A stretch of 64,000 nucleotides of DNA. Origin: Streptomyces sp. ML-6 (lineage in GTDB: Bacteria > Actinomycetota > Actinomycetes > Streptomycetales > Streptomycetaceae). The first letter of the stretch is position 1. Each line of letters begins with the position of its first letter. Made by a program: the position numbers and the translations under genes. Below, piece by piece: positions 4,297 through 49,324 of this stretch. The notes beneath the pieces were generated by a model. That model made no database searches. It saw only the letters and a list, made by a program, of their open reading frames with translations, and had not been told where the DNA came from. The stretch covers positions 806,001-870,000 of the forward strand of contig NZ_JAOTIK010000001.1 of assembly GCF_030116705.1 (NCBI RefSeq), in the 5' to 3' direction.

Positions 4297-5431
4297 CGGG
4301 GGCGGTCCGCCGCACGGTCGCCACGGCCGTGTCGATCTGCTCCTCGGTCAGGTCGGCGCGCGCGGTCAGCCGCAGCCGGGACACCCCGTCCGGCACCGAC
4401 GGCGGCCGGAAGCAGCCCACGAGGACCCCGGCGGCACGGCAGTCGGCCGCCCAGCGCACGGCGGTCTCCGCCGACGGGGCCCGCACCGACACCACCGCGG
4501 CGTCGGGGCGCACGGCGGTCAGACCGGCCGCCGTCAGCCGCTCGTACAGGGCGGTGGCGACCTCGCGGGCCCGGCCGGCGCGCTCCGGTTCCCGGCGCAG
4601 CAGCCGCAGGCCGCCCAGCGCGGCGCCCGCCGCGGCCGGTGCGAGGCCGGTGTCGAAGATGAACGTACGGGCCGTGTTGACCAGGTGCTCGATGACCCGG
4701 GCGGGGCCGAGGACGGCTCCGCCCTGGCTGCCGAGGGACTTGGAGAGGGTGAGCGTGGCGACGATCCCCGTGCCGCCCGCGAGACCGGCGGCGGCGAGCG
4801 CGCCTCGGCCGCCTTCCCCCAGTACGCCCAGTCCGTGCGCGTCGTCGACGAGCAGCGCGGCGCCCTCCGCGCGGCAGACGTCGGCCAGGCCGGGCAGCGG
4901 TGCCGCGTCGCCGTCGACGGAGAAGACCGAGTCGGTGACGGCCAGCGCCCTGCCGTCGTGCGCCCGCAGTTCCTTGCGCACGGCGTCGGGGTCGGCGTGT
5001 GTGACCACGGCGGTCTCGGCGCGGGAGAGCCGGCAGCCGTCCACGATCGAGGCGTGGTTGCCCGCGTCGGAGACGATCAGCGAACCGCGTCCGGTGAGCG
5101 CCGTGACGGCCGCGAGGTTGGCCGCGTAGCCCGACGACAGCACCAGGGCCGCTTCGAAACCGCAGAAATCGGCCAGTTCACGTTCCAGTTCGGCATGCAG
5201 TGCGGTGGAGCCGGTGACAAGTCTGGATCCGGTCGCGCCCGCACCCCACCGGTGTGCGGCCTCGGCCGCGGCGGCGGTGACCTCGGGGTGTCGCGTCAGC
5301 CCCAGATAGTCGTTGCTCGCGAGGTCCAGGAGGCCGGACCCGGCGGACCGGGGGCGGAGCGTGCGGACGAGCCCGGCGTCCGCGCGGCGGCGCGCCTCGT
5401 CGTCGATCCAGTCGAACGGGTCGAGGGGCAT
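4289..5431 (-). CDS. bioF: 8-amino-7-oxononanoate synthase
   Basis: Encodes 380 aa, normal length for BioF. This alpha-oxoamine synthase condenses pimeloyl-ACP/CoA with L-Ala using PLP, the first committed step of biotin ring assembly. Visible features are SNDYLGL near the N-terminus, GSRLVTG, the DDAHGLG cofactor motif, and the PLP lysine in TLSKSLGSQGG. ATG 5431 begins MPLDPFDWIDDEA as in other actinobacterial BioF. The gene is divergent from bioBAD, with a 142-bp shared control region. No BirA or BioQ box could be recognised with confidence. Confidence 0.95.
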   Translation of the reverse strand: MPLDPFDWIDDEARRRADAGLVRTLRPRSAGSGLLDLASNDYLGLTRHPEVTAAAAEAAHRWGAGATGSRLVTGSTALHAELERELADFCGFEAALVLSSGYAANLAAVTALTGRGSLIVSDAGNHASIVDGCRLSRAETAVVTHADPDAVRKELRAHDGRALAVTDSVFSVDGDAAPLPGLADVCRAEGAALLVDDAHGLGVLGEGGRGALAAAGLAGGTGIVATLTLSKSLGSQGGAVLGPARVIEHLVNTARTFIFDTGLAPAAAGAALGGLRLLRREPERAGRAREVATALYERLTAAGLTAVRPDAAVVSVRAPSAETAVRWAADCRAAGVLVGCFRPPSVPDGVSRLRLTARADLTEEQIDTAVATVRRTAPVS

Positions 5432-40347: not shown

Positions 40348-41037
40348 TCAGTGTGGGAGAGAGCGCCACACGGTGCCCAGAACGCGTTCGGCGGGAAAGT
40401 ACCCCACCAGCTGCGAGTCCAGGCTGTTGACGGGGTTGTCGCCGAGCAGCACCAAGCTCCCGGGCGGCACCAGGCCCGTCGCCGAGTCGGCCATACCAGG
40501 GACACGATCGCGAGGTATCGGGTCTCCCTCGACGGCCACCACTCTCTTGATCAGCCACCTACGGTCGGCGATGGCTGAGGCCCCAGCAGTGCGCCTTACC
40601 GGCGGAGTGCTCCAGCGAGCACCGGCCGTAGGCCGTTCGATGACGACAACCTGCCCCGGCCTGGGCGTGCGGCTCCGGCGTACGAGCACTCGGTCCCCGT
40701 CACGGTAGGTGGGGCGCATGCTCTCCCCGTGCACGGTCACCGCGACCACCCTGCGCCCGAGACACACCGGGGCGACGCTCCTCACGGTGAGGGCAAGGGC
40801 TGCCAGTCCGCAGGTCAGGGCCGGGCCGGCGGCCCCCGCAAGGAGAAGGACGAGTGCGCCGGCCCACGCTGCGACCGTTCCCGCGCATACTCCGGTGCGG
40901 GCCACCCACGGCCGACGCGGAGGGCGGGCCCGCGGCTCGGCTGTGCCCCCTGCCGGCAGCGCCGCCAGGACGTGCGCGGGCAGGGAAGTGCGAGGTTCCC
41001 CGACGGGCGTTCCCATTGTCGGTGGTTCGTGGGTCAC
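40348..41037 (-). CDS. S26-family signal peptidase of the Cys-rich peptide operon
   Basis: Encodes 229 aa. Two membrane segments lie about 48-70 and 72-92. The S26 Ser-Lys dyad is visible: Ser106 in VHGESMRPTYRDGD and Lys164 in WLIKRVVAVEGD, plus the box GDNPVNSLDSQLVG. It is a true type I signal peptidase fold, not a maintenance paralogue. It starts with GTG overlapping the ABC gene stop (GTGA), so it is the last gene of the operon. It probably removes the leader of the 64-aa peptide, whose AAAAAP stretch offers an AxA-type site, during or after export. Confidence 0.9.
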   Translation of the reverse strand: MTHEPPTMGTPVGEPRTSLPAHVLAALPAGGTAEPRARPPRRPWVARTGVCAGTVAAWAGALVLLLAGAAGPALTCGLAALALTVRSVAPVCLGRRVVAVTVHGESMRPTYRDGDRVLVRRSRTPRPGQVVVIERPTAGARWSTPPVRRTAGASAIADRRWLIKRVVAVEGDPIPRDRVPGMADSATGLVPPGSLVLLGDNPVNSLDSQLVGYFPAERVLGTVWRSLPH

Positions 41038-42872
41038 GTCAGTCCTCCCATGACAACCGGGGCGTCCGCTTCGTCCTGGTAACCGGACGCCTGCAGCAGG
41101 AAGAGCCGGGCATACGCGCCTTCGGCGGCCATCAGCGCGGCATGGTCGCCCTGTTCGACGACCCGGCCGTCCGCGAGTACGACGATCGAGTCGGCGTCCC
41201 GCAGAGCGCCCAGGCGATGCGAGACGAGCAGGCTGGTCCGCCCGCAGCGGTGCTCTCGGAGCGCGGCGTGGATCTCGGCCTCGGCCTCGGCGTCCAAGCC
41301 GGCGGACGGTTCGTCGAGGATCAGCAGATCGCGCTGGTCGCGGAGGAACGCTCGCGCCAGCGCGAGCCGTTGCCACTGCCCGCCAGAGAGCACGACTCCG
41401 GTCTCCGGATCGTCCTTGTCCGACTCCATGAAGAAAAGACGGGACAGCAGAGTGTCGTAGCCCTGCGGCAGATCTTCGAGTGTGTCGTGGATCCCCGCGC
41501 GCCGAGCCGCCCCCTGGAGCCGGTCGCGGTCGCCGAGCGCCGCCAGATCACCCAGGGCGACGTTCTCGGCGGCCGTCATGTCGTAGTGCATGTAGTCCTG
41601 AAACACCGCGCCAATGCGCTCGCGCAACTCCGCAGGGTCGAAGTTGCGGAGGTCCTCCCCGTCCCACAGGATCGCTCCACGGGTGGGGTCGTAGAACCGG
41701 CACATCAACTTGACCAATGTGGATTTGCCCGCGCCGTTGAGGCCGACGAGCGCCACGGCGGTCCCATGGGGGATGAAGAGGTCGACGCCGCGCAGTACCC
41801 AGGGGTGCTCGTCCGAGTACCGGAACCAGACGTCCCGCAGTTCGATCCCGTGTCGCAGGGTCGGGACCGGACGCGGCACGGCGGGCACCGGCAGGTCGGG
41901 GCCTGCGGAGGTCACCGTCATGTAGTGATCGAACATGAGGAGAGCCTGGTGCGTGCCGGCGACCTGGCCGATGAGCGCCACCAGCGAACTCTGAACACCT
42001 GCCACTGCAGCGACGAACATGGTCACTCCGCCGACCGAGAGGGCTCCGGTGCGCGCGGCGTCCACCGCCCATATCAGGCCGGAACCGCTCACCAGCGCGG
42101 CCAGCAATCCTAGTCCTGTCTGCACGAGGCCGGTGCGCCTGTCCACGCTCCGCTTCGCGGCGTCGGTGGCACGGCGCTCGCTCAACATGCGTCCTCGCAG
42201 GAAGGCACCGATACCGAAAAGCCGTACCTCCTTGGCGGAGTCGACCCCGGTCAGCAGCTGGCTGTAGAAGATTTCCCGCCGTTCGGCGGGGCCGACGGCC
42301 CAGAACATGTGCGCCCTGTGCCGCGACAGCCGGAGCTCGGCGAGCAGCATGGGCACCCCGGCCAGCAACACGAGAAGGGCCATCAGCGGACTGAGCAGGA
42401 GCAGTGAGCCGAGGAATCCGACAACGGTGACGGCTAACCGGACGATTTGCAGCATGCTGATGACGGTCTGGCTCGGGGTGCTTCGGCCGGCCTGGTCTGC
42501 CAGGCGCAGCTGGTCCAGAAAGCGCGGATCCTCGAACCGGCGCAGTCCGGCGAAACTCCCGACAGCCGTGAACAGCCGCTCCTGGGCGAGTAGCGCCACT
42601 CTGCGGTCCATCTCCGTGCGCACGTACTGGACCAGGTGCGGCACGATGCTGGTGGTGGCGGCGGCTCCGGCAAGCGCCGTGGCCACGGCGATCAGCTTGG
42701 CTGCCGAAGCGCCCGTGGTCAGAAGGTCCAGTACCAGTTTGGTCAGCCACGCGGTAGCTACCGGAAGTATTCCGGTGACGACCATGAACCCGGCATAGAG
42801 TGCCACCGGGCCTGGTGCTGCCCTGCATGTCAACGCACATGCCGACGCCGCGCGTCGTACGGTCACGCGCAT
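41034..42872 (-). CDS. ABC exporter, fused membrane and ATPase domains
   Basis: Encodes 612 aa. A six-helix membrane domain (about 20-320) is followed by an ATPase domain: Walker A GLNGAGKSTL, signature LSGGQWQRLALARAF, Walker B LLILDEPSAGLD. It belongs to the half-transporter exporter type common in peptide natural-product clusters. It lacks the N-terminal C39 peptidase domain that would cleave double-Gly leaders, which fits the presence of a separate S26 peptidase. It sits 43 bp after the TlpA gene and overlaps the peptidase gene by 4 bp. Confidence 0.93.
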   Translation of the reverse strand: MRVTVRRAASACALTCRAAPGPVALYAGFMVVTGILPVATAWLTKLVLDLLTTGASAAKLIAVATALAGAAATTSIVPHLVQYVRTEMDRRVALLAQERLFTAVGSFAGLRRFEDPRFLDQLRLADQAGRSTPSQTVISMLQIVRLAVTVVGFLGSLLLLSPLMALLVLLAGVPMLLAELRLSRHRAHMFWAVGPAERREIFYSQLLTGVDSAKEVRLFGIGAFLRGRMLSERRATDAAKRSVDRRTGLVQTGLGLLAALVSGSGLIWAVDAARTGALSVGGVTMFVAAVAGVQSSLVALIGQVAGTHQALLMFDHYMTVTSAGPDLPVPAVPRPVPTLRHGIELRDVWFRYSDEHPWVLRGVDLFIPHGTAVALVGLNGAGKSTLVKLMCRFYDPTRGAILWDGEDLRNFDPAELRERIGAVFQDYMHYDMTAAENVALGDLAALGDRDRLQGAARRAGIHDTLEDLPQGYDTLLSRLFFMESDKDDPETGVVLSGGQWQRLALARAFLRDQRDLLILDEPSAGLDAEAEAEIHAALREHRCGRTSLLVSHRLGALRDADSIVVLADGRVVEQGDHAALMAAEGAYARLFLLQASGYQDEADAPVVMGGLT

Positions 42873-42915
42873 CTGCGTGCACCTTCCACCGAATCTGTGG
42901 AGTCCTCAAGCGGAC

Positions 42916-43470
42916 TCATGCCGCACTGGAGACCGCAGCACCGGCGTGACCGAGGTCCAGGTTGTCGGTGGTCGCCACGAGCGTGCCCCTCGAGTCGCGG
43001 GCGACCTGGAGCAGCGCCGGAAAGCCAATGACGGCGAAGGCCAGCGACATCGGCCCACCTCGCTCCTCGACGACCACCTGTGCCACGGGGGCGAGTTGTG
43101 CGGCGTACGCGGCCGTCTCGTCCTCCTCACCGACCACAACTGCCAGGGCCTGCCGGCGCCCACCGGGGAGGGCACGTGCGTACTCCAGGAACTTGGGCAT
43201 CGTCTCCCGGCACATCTTGCAGTCGGGCGTGAAGAAGGCGACCGCCGTGTTGTCCACGAGCTGTTCCTGGTCCAGCTGTTGACCTTCGGTTGTGACGGTC
43301 CGGAACGGGTGCACCCTCTCACCCTTGGTGATGGAGGATGCCGGGCCCCGGCCGACGCGGGCGATTTGCTCGGAATGCTCCCGGAGTCGTTTGATGACAC
43401 CCACCGTGAGGACCAGGTCAAGTGCGCAGAGCAACCCCACGAGCACGACCAGTCCGGCGAGGACGGGCAT
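42916..43470 (-). CDS. TlpA/MauD-like membrane-anchored thioredoxin
   Basis: Encodes 184 aa. One N-terminal membrane helix (about 4-25; LAGLVVLVGLLCALDLVLTVGV) anchors an extracytoplasmic thioredoxin-like domain whose active site is Cys84-Lys-Met-Cys87 in FFTPDCKMCRETMPKF. The same pairing of MauD-like thioredoxin and MauE occurs in methylamine dehydrogenase clusters, where they are needed for disulfides in the Cys-rich small subunit. Here the likely client is the six-Cys peptide encoded upstream. It starts eight bases after the MauE-like gene. Confidence 0.9.
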   Translation of the reverse strand: MPVLAGLVVLVGLLCALDLVLTVGVIKRLREHSEQIARVGRGPASSITKGERVHPFRTVTTEGQQLDQEQLVDNTAVAFFTPDCKMCRETMPKFLEYARALPGGRRQALAVVVGEEDETAAYAAQLAPVAQVVVEERGGPMSLAFAVIGFPALLQVARDSRGTLVATTDNLDLGHAGAAVSSAA

Positions 43471-43478
43471 TGTGCCTC

Positions 43479-44018
43479 CTAGCGTCTTATAGGACGGAAT
43501 AGTTGGACGAGGTCGTCGGAGACGACGGCCAGCGCTCCGACCAACACGCCGGAGCATGCCGCCAGCAGTGCCTCGGCCGGCCTGAGATGGCCCGCAGCCG
43601 AGTGGGCCGCCACGCCGCAGAGCGCGATCATCCAGAGCACGATGTTCCGCACGATGTGCCGGGCACCGAGCGGGTACTCCGAAGCGCCGAAGCACCGGCA
43701 TACGGCCTGGCGCCGCCCTGTGAGGGCGCGCGCCAGGCCGATGGTGAAGACCGCCAACAGACAAGCGGCCAGAACAAAACCCGCTGATCCCGCCCAGTCG
43801 CCCAGCGGCGTTGCGAGCAGGAGCAGGACAACCGACACCTCGCTGATCACCACGGCCGCACCGCAGACGCGTACCCAGCCATCCGGGACGAGGCCCATGG
43901 CCTTCAGCGATCGGCAGAACCCCGAGAACGCGGCAGCGGTACGCACCTTGCCGACCGCTGCCGCCGCGAACACCACCACGAGGCATACAGCACAGGCGGC
44001 AGCGACTACGTCCACCAT
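43479..44018 (-). CDS. MauE/DoxX-like membrane redox protein
   Basis: Encodes 179 aa. Four to five membrane segments form a MauE-type fold. The redox Cys pair is Cys107/Cys109 in the loop VCRCFGASEYPLGARHIVRN, the characteristic MauE motif before a conserved HIVRN. Related to vitamin-K-epoxide-reductase/DsbB-like proteins, it should pass electrons between the membrane quinone pool and the TlpA-like partner. It lies between the peptide gene (87 bp upstream) and the thioredoxin gene (8 bp downstream). Confidence 0.88.
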   Translation of the reverse strand: MVDVVAAACAVCLVVVFAAAAVGKVRTAAAFSGFCRSLKAMGLVPDGWVRVCGAAVVISEVSVVLLLLATPLGDWAGSAGFVLAACLLAVFTIGLARALTGRRQAVCRCFGASEYPLGARHIVRNIVLWMIALCGVAAHSAAGHLRPAEALLAACSGVLVGALAVVSDDLVQLFRPIRR

Positions 44019-44105
44019 GAGGACCCTTTCCCAAGGCCGGTCCCGGCCCGGGCCGCCGTGTGCGGCCCGGGTCTCAGAGGATCAGCGAGGTCGGTTGCAC
44101 GCTGG

Positions 44106-44300
44106 TCAGCGGCAGTCGTCGCAGTACATGAACACCCAGCCGGTCGAGCAGTTGTCGCTGTACGCCCACCAGTGGTTGTTCCAGTCGTCGCAGCCCGAAC
44201 CGGTGAAGCACTTGTAGCAGGGGGCCGCGGCCGCGGCGTCGACCCCGGGTACGAACCGCTCCAGCAGTTTGCTTCCCAGCTCTTCGATCGTCTTGAACAC
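44106..44300 (-). CDS. 64-aa Cys-rich precursor peptide
   Basis: A likely secreted peptide or RiPP-like precursor. Residues 1-26 (MFKTIEELGSKLLERFVPGV then DAAAAA) form an amphipathic helix ending in an Ala run. They are not hydrophobic enough for a Sec signal, so this looks like an export leader. Residues 27-64 form a core with six Cys at 28, 31, 37, 51, 60 and 63 and five Trp. CxxC pairs lie at both ends (PCYKC and YCDDC) and the middle is WNNHWWAYSD. GTG start with AAGGAG eight bases upstream. It is the first gene of the operon with MauE, TlpA, ABC exporter and S26 peptidase. No known family recognised. Confidence 0.85.
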   Translation of the reverse strand: MFKTIEELGSKLLERFVPGVDAAAAAPCYKCFTGSGCDDWNNHWWAYSDNCSTGWVFMYCDDCR

Positions 44301-44423
44301 GTCGGACTCCTTCTCTCGGTCGTTCTCCCGATGAATCTCGCGATGGAGCCCCTCCCCTACGCTCTCGGAGCGTCAGGGAGAATGCCCAGCCCTTCGGCCG
44401 TTGGAGATACTGGTTGGCGCATG

Positions 44424-44510: not shown

Positions 44511-45019
44511 GTGGACTTCATTCTGTTCGGCGGCATCGAGGCACGTGTCGATGGTGCTGCGGTTGACCTGGGCCATGTTCGTCAGCGGTCGGTTCCGGCG
44601 GGGCTGCTGGTCGATGCCGATGCTCCGGTCCCGACCGCCAGGATCGTGGACCGGGGGTGGGGGACCGTCCTCCGCCACGAGCCCACGCCACGCTCTACAG
44701 CCATGTGTCCCGCCTGCGCCGGGTCCTGGCCACGGCGGCCGAGGAGGTGCGCATCCCACGGCAATCGGGCTCGTACGTCCTCACGGTCGATTCGCCAGCC
44801 GTGGACCTGCACCGCTTTCGTGGCCTGGTTGGGCAGGCCCGCGCCGCGGACGACAGCCACGCTGCGGTGCTGTTCGCACAAGCGCTTGCACTGTGGCGCG
44901 GCGATGCCTTCGGCGATCTGGACACTCCTTGGTTCAACGTCCTGCGCGAGCCGTGGCACCGGGAGAGACTCGCGACCGAACCGGATCTGAAGCTCCCCCG
45001 GTGCCCCGTCAGCCGCTGA
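44511..45019 (+). pseudogene. Truncated, frameshifted SARP regulator
   Basis: GTG 44511 with a perfect GGGGAGAGGAGG site begins VDFILFGGIEARVDG ... TARIVDRGWG, the OmpR-like winged HTH of SARPs. One base is then missing in the G-run near 44658. The next frame continues DRPPPRAHATLYSHVSRLRRVLATAAEEV ... SGSYVLTVD and the first part of the BTAD domain (FRGLVGQARAADDSHAAVLFAQALALWRGDAF). The protein stops after about 169 codons, against more than 260 in intact SARPs, overlapping the sbcC end by 11 bp. It was probably the pathway activator of the adjacent peptide operon and is now broken, unless the G-run is a read error. Confidence 0.75.
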
Positions 45020-48000
45020 GCGGATCGGCGGTGCGGTGCCGGACCGCCGATCCGTGCCGTTCCTTCACCACCTCGAGCTGGGCGGGGATGCGGCGGCGCA
45101 GGTCGGCGACATGGCTGACGATGCCGACGCTGCGGTCCCGCTCGCGCAACGAGTCCAGTACGTCGAGCACTTCGTCGAGGGTCTGGTCGTCCAGGCTGCC
45201 GAAGCCCTCGTCGATGAAGAGGGTGTCCAGCCGTACGCCGCCCGCCTCGTCGGTGACGACGTCGGCGAGGCCGAGCGCGAGGGCGAGCGAGGCGAAGAAC
45301 GTCTCGCCGCCCGAGAGCGTGGCCGTGTCGCGCTCCCGGCCGGTCCAGGCGTCGACGACGTGCAGTCCGAGGCCCGCCCTGCGGCCCCCGGTGCGGGCGT
45401 CGGAGTGGACCAGTGTGTACCGGCCGGACGACATGCGCTGCAACCGGGCGGTGGCCGCGGCGGCGACCTGTTCGAGCCGGGCGGCGAGCACGTACGACTC
45501 CAGCCGCATCTTGCGTTCGTTGTCGGCGGAGGTTCCGGCGGTGAGCCCGGCCAGCCGTGCCACCCGGTCGTACTCCTCGCGCAGCGGGCCGAGTCCGCGC
45601 ACCTCCCGCTCGGCGTCCCGCGAGAGCCGGCCGAGTTCGGCGCAGCGCTCGCGCGCGGCGGCCAGCACGGCGGAGGCGTCCCGCAGCAGCCGTTCGGCCG
45701 TGTCGTACGCGGCCTGCGCGGCGGCCACCTCGGCCGGCGGGAGCTGCGCGGCGGCCCGGGTGTCCGTCTCGGCGAGCCGGTCGGCCACGGCGGCCGCCTC
45801 GGACTGCCAGTCGTCGACGAGGCGCTGGAGTTCGCGCTGTGCGGTCTCGTCGAGCAGGTTCAGCGCCGCGGCCCGCGGGGTGTCGAAACCGGCCCGGAAC
45901 GCGGCGTCCGCGAGCCGGTCGTCGGCCTCCTTGCGGCGCTGTGCGGCCTCCTCCTCCGCGCGCACCGCCGCGGCGGCCTCGGCGAGCAGGCCGATCCGGC
46001 GCTCCAGCAGTGCGGCGTGCTCGGCCACGCTGCCGGACTCGCCGCGGGCGGCCACCAACCCGGCCTCCAGCACCGCCTGTTCACGGTCCAGTCCTTCCCG
46101 CAGCGAGGTGCGGGCGGCGGCCCGGCGCTCGGCCCGCTGCCGGTCCTCGAGCCGTTCGGCCTGCTCCCGCTCGGCGGCCGCGAGGGCCTCGCGCGCCGCG
46201 TGCGTGCTGGCCGCGGTGCGGTGCGCCTCGGCGTGATCGCGCGTCAGCCGGTCGACGAACGCGCCGAGTTCGGAAACGGTGGGATCGACGGCAACGGACT
46301 CGGGGGCTGTGGGATCGACGGCGGAATCGAAGGCGGTGGGATCGGGGGCGACGGGCTCCGGCGCGGTCCCGGGCCGTTGCTGCCCGGCCGGACCGGTGTC
46401 CTTCGCCCCGTCCTCCGGCCGGGGCTCCGCCGTGCGGGCGGCCAGGCGCGCGGCCGCGTGCTGTTCGCGTACGACGCCCAGTTCCCGGTCCGCCGCGGTG
46501 CGCGCCTCCTCGGCGCGCCGGTACGCGTCGAGGGCCCGTTCCTCGGTGGCCCGGTCGACGTGCCCGTCGGCGGCGCGGGCCGGTCGGGGGTGGTCGGCCG
46601 AGCCGCAGACCTTGCAGTCCTCGCCGTCCACCAGTTCCGCCGCGAGTTCCGCCGCGATGTCGCGCAGCCGTCGTTCGCGCAGCTCCAGCCAGGATTCGTG
46701 GGCGTGGGCGGCGTGTTCGCGGGCCCCGGCCAGCCGCTCGGCCGCGGCCGACACCCGGATGGCGAGCGCGTCGCGGCGGCGGGCCGCCTCCAGTCGCGCA
46801 CGGGCGGGCTCCAGGCGGCCGGCGAGCTGTTCGGCCCGGGTGGCGGCCTCCTGGGCCTCCTCGATGCGGGCCCGCAGGCCGTCCCGGACGTCCTCCCAGC
46901 CGGCCAGCCAGCCGTCCGCCTCGCGGATCAGCTCGTCGTCGTCCCTGGCCTGGCGTTCCAGTCCGGCGCGCTCGACGTCGATCTCGGCGCTGCGCCGCTC
47001 GGCGCCGCGCGCGGCCTCGAGGCCGCCGAGTTCCTGTCTCAGCCGCCCTTCCAGTTCCGCCAGTTGTTCGGCACCGGCGTCGGCCAGGGTGGCCGGCAGC
47101 GGCGCGCGGGCACGGTCGCGGGCCGCCAGGGCCGCCTGGTACGCGCGCTCGGCCTCGTCGCGCAGGTCCAGGGCGGGGGCGACGAGGTCCGCCTTGCGGG
47201 CGCGGGCGAGCCGGTCGCGGTTCTCCTCGTGGCCGGGACGGCGGGCCTCGAGCGCGGCGGAGCGGCGCAGCGTCTCCTCGTGGCGCTGCTGGAGTGCCGC
47301 GAGTGCGCGGGCCCGGTCGAGGTCTTCCAGGGCGGCCGCCCGTCGGCTGTCGGCCATGGTCAGGGCGGACGCGGCGATGTCGAGCCGTTCGCGGGCGCCG
47401 CTGCGCGCCGTCGCGGCCCATTCCAGGACGCCGTCGGCGAGGCCGGGTTCTCCGGGCCGGGTGTCGGGGAGCGGCGTCCCGGCGACCGGTCCGGCGGCCT
47501 GGGCGATCCGTTGGGCCGTCCCGACGATGCGTTCGTCCCCGGCCCTGACCTGGGCCTCGGCGGTACGGCGCAGTTCCGCCAGGCGCTCCTCCACGGCGGC
47601 GAAGCGGCGGGTGTCGAAGAGCCTGCCGAGCAGTTTGCCGCGCGCCTCGGCGTCGGCGCGCAGGAAGCGTGCGAAGTCGCCCTGCGGCAGGAGCACCACT
47701 TGGCAGAACTGTTCCCGGCTCATCCCGATGAGCTGGGTGATCTCCTCGCCGATCTCCTGGTGGGAGCGGCTGAGCGGCTGCCAGCCCCGGTCCGGGCGGT
47801 GTTCCCGCAGCTCGCTCCGTGCCTTCTCCGTCGTGAAGCCGCTGCCCTTCCGCTTGGGGCGGGGCTGGGCCGGGCGCCGGGTGATCTCGAGGCGTCTGCC
47901 GCCGACGGTCAGCTCCAGCCGGACCTCGGTGGCGACGTCCACCGGGGCGTGGTCGCTGCGCAGGGAGGTGCCGGGGCTCTGTCTCGCCCCGGGCACCGCG

Positions 48001-48161
48001 CCGTACAGGGCGTAGCAGACTGCGTCGAGGACCGAGGTCTTCCCCGCGCCGGTCGGCCCGTGCAGCAGGAAGAGCCCGGCCGAGGAGAGCGCGTCGAAGT
48101 CGATGTCCTGGGTGGTGCCGAACGGCCCGAAGGCGGTGATGGCGAGCCGGTGGAGTCTCAA
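45009..48161 (-). CDS. sbcC: Exonuclease SbcC (Rad50-like ATPase)
   Basis: Encodes 1050 aa. An SMC-like ATPase split across the ends: Walker A GPTGAGKTSVLDAV near residue 35; signature TLSGGETFFASLALALGL and Walker B LDTLFIDEGFG near the C-terminus. Between them are long coiled coils and a zinc hook at CKVCG. With SbcD it opens hairpins and trims double-strand ends. A low-complexity insert (PTAFDSAVDPTAPESVAVDP) lies in the second coil. TTG start overlaps the sbcD stop. The frame continues open upstream but homology starts at LRLHRLAITAFGPFG. Confidence 0.95.
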   Translation of the reverse strand: MRLHRLAITAFGPFGTTQDIDFDALSSAGLFLLHGPTGAGKTSVLDAVCYALYGAVPGARQSPGTSLRSDHAPVDVATEVRLELTVGGRRLEITRRPAQPRPKRKGSGFTTEKARSELREHRPDRGWQPLSRSHQEIGEEITQLIGMSREQFCQVVLLPQGDFARFLRADAEARGKLLGRLFDTRRFAAVEERLAELRRTAEAQVRAGDERIVGTAQRIAQAAGPVAGTPLPDTRPGEPGLADGVLEWAATARSGARERLDIAASALTMADSRRAAALEDLDRARALAALQQRHEETLRRSAALEARRPGHEENRDRLARARKADLVAPALDLRDEAERAYQAALAARDRARAPLPATLADAGAEQLAELEGRLRQELGGLEAARGAERRSAEIDVERAGLERQARDDDELIREADGWLAGWEDVRDGLRARIEEAQEAATRAEQLAGRLEPARARLEAARRRDALAIRVSAAAERLAGAREHAAHAHESWLELRERRLRDIAAELAAELVDGEDCKVCGSADHPRPARAADGHVDRATEERALDAYRRAEEARTAADRELGVVREQHAAARLAARTAEPRPEDGAKDTGPAGQQRPGTAPEPVAPDPTAFDSAVDPTAPESVAVDPTVSELGAFVDRLTRDHAEAHRTAASTHAAREALAAAEREQAERLEDRQRAERRAAARTSLREGLDREQAVLEAGLVAARGESGSVAEHAALLERRIGLLAEAAAAVRAEEEAAQRRKEADDRLADAAFRAGFDTPRAAALNLLDETAQRELQRLVDDWQSEAAAVADRLAETDTRAAAQLPPAEVAAAQAAYDTAERLLRDASAVLAAARERCAELGRLSRDAEREVRGLGPLREEYDRVARLAGLTAGTSADNERKMRLESYVLAARLEQVAAAATARLQRMSSGRYTLVHSDARTGGRRAGLGLHVVDAWTGRERDTATLSGGETFFASLALALGLADVVTDEAGGVRLDTLFIDEGFGSLDDQTLDEVLDVLDSLRERDRSVGIVSHVADLRRRIPAQLEVVKERHGSAVRHRTADPLSG

Positions 48162-49324
48162 CGGTTCACCTCGCGCACCGCGTCGTCCACCCGTACGTGG
48201 TCGAAGGCGCCGCGCAGCACCGTCCGTTCCTGTTCGTCGGCCGCCGATCCGCCCCGCACGTGTGCCACGAAGTCCTCCGCGATCTGCTGGTCGTCGCGCC
48301 CCTTGAGACGCTGTGCGTACGAGGCGAGCGGGTCCTCGGGGGCCCGGTCGGGTTCGAACACGAGGCTGAGCGTGTGCGGGAACCGCTCGGCGAGCCGGGC
48401 CATCGGTTCGACCGGGCGCGTCGGGTCGGTGAGGGTGGCCTCGATCCAGGACTCCCGGTGCCGCTCCAGCGCGGGGTCCTCGACGAGGTCGTCGAGGCGG
48501 CCCCGGAGCCGGGCGAGCGGGCGGGGCACGGGGAGGTCGACGCGTTCGGCGGCGAACGTGCCCGGTGCGCCGAGGTCGATCAGCCACATGGTCTTGCGGT
48601 GGTGGGCCTCGGAGAAGGAGTACGCGAGCGGCGAACCCGAGTAGCGGACCCGTTCGGTGACGGTCTGGCAGCCGTGCAGATGGCCGAGTGCCACGTAGTC
48701 GACGCCGTCGAAGACGCCGGCGGGGACGGCGGCCACTCCGCCGACGGTGATGTCGCGTTCGCTGTCGCTGGGTTCGCCGCCCGCGACGAAGGCGTGGGCG
48801 AGGACCACGGAGCGGGTGCCGTCGGGGCGGGTCGCGAGGTCGGCGCGGACCTGTTCCATGGCCGCGCCGAGCACCGCCTCGTGCCCGGCGCGCCCGGCCC
48901 CGAGAACGTCCTTGACCAGGGCGGGTTCCAGGTAGGGCAGTCCGTAGAACGCGACGTCGCCGTGCGGGTCGGACAGGACGAGGGGGGTGGCGCAGTCGGC
49001 GGGGTCGGTGCGCAGGTGGATTCCGGCCCGCTCGATCAGTCCCGCGCCGACGCCCAGCCTGCGGGCCGAGTCGTGGTTCCCGGAGATCATCACGGTGGGC
49101 ACGTCGGCGGTGGCGAGGCGGTGCAGCGCGTCATCGAAGAGTTCCACCGCGGACAGGGGCGGAACGGCTCTGTCGTACACGTCACCCGCGACGAGCACGA
49201 CGTCCACCTCGTACGCGTGCACCGTCGCCACCAAGTGGTCCAGAAAAGCGGCCTGGGCCTCGATCAGGGATACCCGGTGGAACGACCGTCCGAGGTGCCA
49301 GTCCGACGTGTGCAGGATTCTCAA
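48158..49324 (-). CDS. sbcD: Exonuclease SbcD (Mre11-like nuclease)
   Basis: Encodes 388 aa. Metallophosphatase motifs are visible: ILHTSDWHLGRSF, VVLVAGDVYDRAVPP, ISGNHDSARRLG and YVALGHLHGCQ. TTG 49324 is the best start: it gives LRILHTSDWHLG as in relatives and has GGAG seven bases upstream; no in-frame ATG is near. It forms the SbcCD complex with the next gene (4-bp overlap). The spacer 49325-49548 before it has no recognisable feature. Confidence 0.94.
   Translation of the reverse strand: MRILHTSDWHLGRSFHRVSLIEAQAAFLDHLVATVHAYEVDVVLVAGDVYDRAVPPLSAVELFDDALHRLATADVPTVMISGNHDSARRLGVGAGLIERAGIHLRTDPADCATPLVLSDPHGDVAFYGLPYLEPALVKDVLGAGRAGHEAVLGAAMEQVRADLATRPDGTRSVVLAHAFVAGGEPSDSERDITVGGVAAVPAGVFDGVDYVALGHLHGCQTVTERVRYSGSPLAYSFSEAHHRKTMWLIDLGAPGTFAAERVDLPVPRPLARLRGRLDDLVEDPALERHRESWIEATLTDPTRPVEPMARLAERFPHTLSLVFEPDRAPEDPLASYAQRLKGRDDQQIAEDFVAHVRGGSAADEQERTVLRGAFDHVRVDDAVREVNR

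Follow-up and report, generated by a model that had tools for sequence, protein, structure and literature searches.

What is made by an operon that couples a short cysteine-rich peptide to genes for redox, export and cleavage proteins? The question is raised by a stretch of 64,000 nucleotides from the 9.13-Mb genome of Streptomyces sp. ML-6 (contig NZ_JAOTIK010000001.1, positions 806,001 to 870,000 of the forward strand), which is referred to here as the window. In it, five genes on the minus strand encode, in the order of transcription, a precursor peptide, a MauE-family protein, a TlpA/MauD-like thioredoxin, an ATP-binding cassette (ABC) exporter and an S26 signal peptidase. The gene set, its order and conservation, the co-occurrence of the precursor with the other genes, the geometry of the leader and the even parity of the cysteines are established. 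The likely product of the operon is one secreted, disulfide-rich mini-peptide, which would be exported by the ABC protein, oxidized or shuffled by the TlpA/MauE pair and cut by the S26 peptidase behind an A-x-A motif.

The operon and its products

The five-gene operon with a 64-residue, six-cysteine peptide had been described in an earlier note made from the sequence alone, and all of its frames are indeed present and open:

40348-44300, minus strand: whole operon, five open intact frames (sequence)
44307-44312, minus strand: ribosome-binding site AAGGAG, 6 bases 5' of the GTG (sequence)
44106-44300, minus strand: precursor gene, 64 residues, GTG start, six cysteines, all in the core (homologues P0002-P0018)
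44229-44300, minus strand: leader, residues 1-24, (V/M)FKTIEELGSKLLERFVPGVDAAA, ending in P-x3-A-x-A (motif kept in alignments; putative cleavage site)
44109-44228, minus strand: core, residues 25-64, 40 residues (computed mass, AlphaFold2)
43479-44018, minus strand: MauE-family membrane protein, 179 residues, four hydrophobic stretches, CRCFG (PF07291, 73 bits)
42916-43470, minus strand: membrane-anchored TlpA/MauD-like thioredoxin-type protein, 184 residues, CKMC (family profile and CxxC)
41034-42872, minus strand: ABC exporter, membrane and ATPase domains fused, 612 residues, no peptidase domain found (domain search)
40348-41037, minus strand: S26 signal peptidase, 229 residues, Ser/Lys dyad GESM...LIKR (TIGR02227)
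44801-44974, plus strand: apparently decayed piece of a BTAD (SARP/AfsR-type) regulator gene (PF03704 positions 1-63 of 146, in open reading frame 44657-45019)

Of the accompanying proteins, MauE (73 bits against a cut-off of 27) and the S26 protein (66 bits against 47, which makes it a type I signal peptidase) exceed their cut-offs. The TlpA-like protein, taken alone, stays under all curated cut-offs (AhpC-TSA, 18.8 bits against 26) and is placed in the TlpA/MauD family because of its family profile and its CxxC motif; the cysteines C84 and C87 are invariant, and an N-terminal hydrophobic stretch (3-21) provides the anchor. The exporter, which the note had called peptidase-less, consists of membrane and ATPase domains and gave no C39 match in the domain search. 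The 4-bp overlap (GTGA) between the ABC stop codon (TGA, 41036-41034) and the GTG start of the S26 gene (41037-41035) is likewise as described. Among the five operon genes there is no lanthipeptide, YcaO, radical-SAM or lasso modifying enzyme, the neighbourhood beyond the operon having been sampled only.

The full operon is also found in Streptomyces sp. L-9-10 (locus L006), with identities of 77% for the precursor, 56% for MauE, 73% for TlpA, 78% for the ABC exporter and 53% for S26. A further frame there, L006:4097-4294, was rejected as a precursor because it has no ribosome-binding site.

Is the 64-residue frame a gene?

The window precursor consists of the leader VFKTIEELGSKLLERFVPGVDAAA followed by the core AAPCYKCFTGSGCDDWNNHWWAYSDNCSTGWVFMYCDDCR, in which the cysteines follow the pattern C-x2-C-x5-C-x13-C-x8-C-x2-C; if cleaved after A24, the oxidized core would have a computed average mass of 4674.0, or of 4603.0 or 4531.9 with one or two further residues trimmed off. 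A single-sequence search among 5.8 billion proteins returned two close homologues, and a profile search 17, in which no Pfam domain was found and of which the named ones are labelled hypothetical or uncharacterized. In comparison with the L006 precursor, 12 codon changes are synonymous and 14 non-synonymous, and in comparison with that of L089, 11 and 22, with the changes heaviest at third codon positions in both cases; these counts, together with the third-position excess, fit a translated, fast-changing peptide. Lack of conservation of this frame had been named in advance as a reason to give up the peptide; at the protein level it proved to be conserved.

No 19-residue stretch of the window precursor exceeds 1.6 on the Kyte-Doolittle scale, so that hydropathy, the only property used here, gives neither a transmembrane segment nor an H-region; across 78 leaders of the family, the best 10-residue mean has a median of 1.08 and a maximum of 2.32. 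As judged by hydropathy alone, the leader thus does not appear to be a Sec signal peptide with a hydrophobic core, and a leader-guided ABC route would be the simplest reading. AlphaFold2, run with 18 sequences, predicts three strands in the core (28-33, 43-48 and 56-60), with block means of 82-89 over residues 31-64, and, at low confidence, a helix in the leader at residues 5-12. No convincing structural neighbour was found in the PDB, and a sequence search of it gave nothing better than E 0.2.

How regularly does the precursor accompany the redox genes?

A profile built from three precursors (A1) was searched in 392 genomes of the genus at E <= 0.01 and matched 44 of them; at the better matches, MauE and TlpA adjoin the precursor, and several weaker matches are false. 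Three of these (L028, L029 and L036), each lying inside a long frame that resembles an oxidoreductase subunit, were discarded. A profile of the TlpA proteins from the better loci (A2) then served as the anchor for wider surveys, matching 59 of 392 genomes of the genus (E <= 1e-12), 29 of 394 genomes of the class (E <= 1e-15), spread over 11 of 137 genera, and 2 of 396 genomes of the phylum, both in the window's genus. Of the 81 loci compared, the genus survey supplied 40 and the class survey most of a further 40, the last locus being L006; most of the stretches are about 10 kb long. Of the 80 places listed in the genus survey, the 40 were taken from the first 44, leaving out the window's own, the identical second copies in G137 and G166 and one partial match, with four lower ones taken later; of the 56 places listed in the class survey, 39 were taken (three also on the genus list), and the remainder are mostly weaker. 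L006 and the loci behind the A2 profile were discovered through their precursors, so that the genus survey is partly dependent on the precursor, the class survey less so.

With TlpA as the anchor, MauE is present in 81 of 81 loci, and the set of four machinery genes is complete in 68. The usual order is precursor, MauE, TlpA, ABC, S26; order and strand vary more in the class survey. A precursor was called by a rule that asks for the leader motif, at least four cysteines in the core and a length of 40-105 residues. By this rule, 71 of the 81 loci have a precursor (36 of 40 in the genus survey, 34 of 40 in the class survey, plus L006), and the 64-kb window has exactly one match, the operon's own precursor; in 400 kb of control DNA from the same genome there is none. 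Inspection adds L170, L174, L098, L103 and L167, for a total of 76; the last three came from a relaxed scan that gives 16 matches per 400 kb of control DNA, so that their calls rest on leader resemblance.

The co-occurrence of the MauE/TlpA set with a short cysteine-rich frame, which the earlier note had proposed as a check, is thus borne out. It bears directly on the idea that MauE and TlpA serve some other client, such as methylamine dehydrogenase, from whose maturation MauE and MauD take their names, or a cytochrome c, the peptide frame being a bystander or no gene at all. Presence of the precursor in 71 loci by rule, together with its conservation as a protein, largely refutes this reading, which we regard as hardly credible. 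No methylamine dehydrogenase subunit was found in the host genome either, although this is a weak test, as the control genomes are equally silent.

Two loci have exact precursor matches, L153 to P0028 of Planobispora longispora and L139 to P0037 of Planomonospora, both in family group f17; hence, the second large group of loci probably belongs to Streptosporangiaceae. Matches to the precursor profile also carry the names Micromonospora rosaria and Nocardiopsis rhodophaea. Locus L012 apparently preserves a related operon in decay: behind its precursor lie internal fragments of the ABC and S26 genes, and the stretch matches neither MauE nor TlpA.

Conserved leaders and hypervariable cores

The rule set comprises 78 precursors, 77 from the loci and that of the window. 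Their leaders share the consensus ..G[SD]RLL..[FL]VPxxxAxA, seen in alignments A1 and A4-A6, which is conserved and not strongly hydrophobic. Between the conserved proline and A-x-A there are exactly 3 residues in all 78 of them, though the rule allowed 2-6; since the rule required the A-x-A itself, only this spacing counts as an independent result. None of the 78 leaders contains a cysteine. The cores have 6 (37 precursors), 8 (24), 10 (14), 4 (2) or 7 (1) cysteines, that is, an even number in 77 of 78, in 53 of 54 after dereplication at 70% and in 30 of 31 at 50%; among control open reading frame starts with at least four cysteines, the number is even in 102 of 164. All eight precursors outside the rule have even numbers too, and they retain P-x3-A-x-A in five cases, A-x-A without the proline in two (L098) and no A-x-A in one (L174). 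An even number is what complete disulfide pairing predicts.

In the 63 loci with a single precursor, the median pairwise identity is 28% for the core, 42% for the leader and 55% for the ABC exporter, and leader and core similarity rises with that of TlpA, MauE and ABC (Mantel r 0.55-0.63). The cysteine spacings in the cores are hypervariable. Thus, the leader and the machinery are conserved and the core is hypervariable in Streptomycetaceae and Streptosporangiaceae, and probably in some other families. The short precursor with its conserved leader and variable core is as expected of ribosomally synthesized and post-translationally modified peptides (RiPPs) with clustered export and maturation genes, and these sequence features point to a large, so far uncharacterized peptide family. 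Several loci have more than one precursor: L102, L104, L138, L140, L141 and L098, as well as L170 with three; those of L140 sit on opposite strands.

The ML-6 genome has a second precursor, P0035 (G000:C1:7661016-7661219, minus strand; L198, L199), of 68 residues with 10 cysteines and belonging to the CWQC subfamily. Near it there are only a weak MauE remnant and a long opposite-strand frame whose start is AfsR-like by eye; P0035 is apparently an orphan precursor, for which the window's operon could supply the machinery in trans.

Two other fates of the cysteines and side chains may be considered here. The window core has a CxxC at both its start and its end, as would befit a metallophore or a zinc-ribbon-like peptide that is exported to bind metal, with the redox pair keeping it reduced. 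Yet most cores carry 6 or 10 cysteines (37 and 14 of 78), which are not multiples of four, and neither the hypervariable spacings nor the result of the PDB sequence search speaks for a metal site; we hold metal binding to be highly improbable. A somewhat less improbable variant, still quite unlikely, is that the precursor is further modified by an unclustered enzyme and so is not disulfide-only, a scenario that overlaps with the one preferred here. For lanthipeptides, maturation genes that lie outside the cluster are known (PMC8960859, in its available text), and Ser, Thr and Trp are present in many cores; on the other side stand the even parity, as predicted by full pairing, and the lack of any known enzyme of this type among the operon genes, the scan of the neighbourhood being non-exhaustive.

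The proposed pathway and the direction of the redox step

The oxidoreductases and the peptidase retain their characteristic residues. The CRCFG motif is invariant in the MauE alignment (A3), CxCFG is present in 80 of 81 MauE matches and CxxC in 81 of 82 TlpA matches; the S26 dyad is kept in 69 of 70 sequences for Ser and in 69 of 70 for Lys. One locus (L169, frame 4452-5016, plus strand) has two TlpA-like genes, one of them without CxxC. S26 enzymes cleave after A-x-A. The pathway would run as follows. The ribosome makes the precursor, the leader of which should be soluble and probably helical, and the leader would bring it to the exporter dedicated to it, the ABC protein. Once it is outside the membrane, its cysteines would be oxidized or shuffled by the anchored TlpA-like thioredoxin, which might in turn be recycled by MauE, with a putative link to quinones, as DsbA is by DsbB. 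The S26 peptidase would cut behind the A-x-A at the leader's end, as suggested by this motif and by the conserved catalytic residues. The predicted product is an acidic peptide of 38-40 residues with three disulfides, the latter being inferred from the even parity together with the redox genes. The sequence of export, oxidation and A-x-A cleavage put forward in the earlier note thus receives support: the even cysteine numbers are consistent with disulfides, and the P-x3-A-x-A site with cleavage by S26.

Which way the redox pair works is a separate matter. ResA and StoA are reductases, and CGPC and CEPC active sites are typical of reductases; MauE and MauD, in turn, are known as a pair from methylamine dehydrogenase maturation. 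The TlpA family profile has thioredoxins, StoA and ResA among its solved and curated relatives, including matches in the PDB, the MauD model is matched by 3 of 22 members, and the inner pairs of the CxxC motif are mixed (GP in 13, AP in 10, PA in 9 and EP in 7 of 81). TlpA/MauE could therefore be a reductase or an isomerase that keeps cysteines open or mends wrong pairs, while the disulfides would form in air or through a housekeeping oxidase; this proposal agrees with the oxidative one in every other step. Against it stand the constant presence of MauE beside TlpA and the speculation, in the available text of the decRiPPter paper, that MauE makes disulfides in the beta subunit of methylamine dehydrogenase (PMC7794033). 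On balance, we consider a reductive role unlikely, if the most serious of the competing explanations.

Besides the mixed active sites, several observations weigh against the proposed pathway. Five of the 81 loci (L091, L092, L155, L157 and L173) yielded no precursor, although the contig of L091, and with it the stretch, starts 740 bases ahead of TlpA. In 13 of 81, ABC and/or S26 are absent from the stretch examined. One core has seven cysteines, the loci behind the TlpA profile had been discovered via the precursor, the Mantel correlations could be explained by shared descent alone, and no immunity gene was recognized. Formation and secretion of one disulfide-rich peptide nevertheless remains the likely function of the operon.

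Regulators, plasmids and a possible role

A cluster of BTAD-type (SARP/AfsR) frames occurs near 26 of 80 loci and AraC-type clusters near 11 and 5; the clusters were typed by Pfam from one member each, and some other recurrent frames may be antisense. The BTAD fragment of the window, upstream of the operon on the opposite strand, covers under half of the domain (63 of 146 positions), which suggests that the local regulator has decayed. It is adjoined by an ordinary SbcC/Rad50-like ATPase gene (45009-48587, minus strand). A Streptomyces atratus plasmid has an intact BTAD regulator divergent to the precursor, followed by MauE/DoxX, TlpA, ABC and S26; its precursor, identical to P0014, and its TlpA are both annotated as hypothetical. 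Another Streptomyces plasmid record has TlpA, ABC and S26 annotated, and TlpA matches fall on 8 plasmid records, all from Streptomyces. The operon was seen on Streptomyces plasmids L196, L197 and L202 (0.11-1.07 Mb), two of which carry an integrase or transposases close to it.

The hypervariable core behind a conserved leader has the look of a secreted effector under diversifying selection; such an effector would most likely be an antimicrobial, or else a signal directed against bacteria nearby. Taken together, this hypervariability, the multiple precursors, the plasmid carriage and the nearby regulators suggest a weapon or a signal.

If this is true, antibiotic-producing genera offer a large reservoir of small peptides stapled by disulfides, encoded by operons that lack the lanthionine, YcaO, radical-SAM and lasso enzymes by which the known classes are recognized. 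The operon would be a compact module for producing disulfide peptides in actinobacteria, MauE and MauD-type proteins would gain a simple, testable client on which the redox direction is directly testable, and one more candidate would be added for leader removal by signal peptidase.

Comparison with known systems

How new, then, is the system? Methylamine dehydrogenase maturation resembles it in that MauE (PF07291) and a MauD-like thioredoxin are encoded with a cysteine-rich client; the window operon, however, has a short exported peptide as its client. Leaders of cinnamycin-type lanthipeptides have no Sec signal, end in A-x-A and are thought to be cut by signal peptidase. The operon's precursors share this non-Sec A-x-A end, whereas lanthionine rings set the cinnamycin type apart; the cinnamycin model matched one of 30 precursors, weakly (E 0.0096). 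In the main text of a review of RiPP proteases, a term search shows that "signal peptidase" and "S26" do not occur (PMC10885120). With a leader that ends in A-x-A and an exporter that gave no C39 match, the peptide does not fit the class II double-glycine bacteriocins of the pediocin type.

The claim that the operon is undescribed was too strong. Families with mauE/mauD and cysteine-rich precursors were flagged by decRiPPter in 2020: in its available text, three Streptomyces candidate families contain mauE, one of them also mauD, with precursors of at least 8 cysteines (PMC7794033). They resemble the present operons in their host genus, in the mauE/mauD genes, in the cysteine-rich precursor and in the proposal of RiPP maturation genes; compared by description only, they are likely to be the same precursor family, as far as its 8-10-cysteine members are concerned. 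What that text offers is a list of candidates, for which it names neither a leader motif nor a cleavage site, and neither a role for S26 nor a product. For the precursors of the present operons, no characterized product and no curated family were found.

The nearest characterized actinobacterial six-cysteine peptide found is actifensin, which, according to the available text (PMC6989792), has a mature form of about 4 kDa, a leader of 32 residues, ABC transporter genes nearby and multiple copies in some operons. It differs in its subtilisin-like protease, its GA-type site and its cysteine pattern, C-x5-12-C-x3-C-x9-10-C-x4-5-C-x-C, which the window core does not match; the word thioredoxin is absent from that text.

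Nor is it unprecedented that a disulfide is made by a cluster's own oxidoreductase, next to its own exporter and protease. TMcin, as its available text describes it (PMC13252029), is a ribosomal disulfide peptide with an ABC transporter, a dedicated leader protease and, in staphylococcal clusters, a thiol oxidoreductase, the gene for which is absent from non-staphylococcal clusters. Its own features are a single disulfide, a transmembrane precursor, the DsbA-type TmcD and the S2P-type TmcP, and it shows that this combination is a workable plan. Against this background, there is a fair chance that the operon peptides deserve a class of their own. The boldest formulation, for which we would give slightly less than even odds, is that of a categorically distinct class: hypervariable, disulfide-only mini-proteins from a self-contained MauE/TlpA/peptidase-less ABC/S26 module, diversified by Streptomycetaceae and Streptosporangiaceae as an arsenal against neighbours, in the manner of conotoxins, behind a conserved leader.

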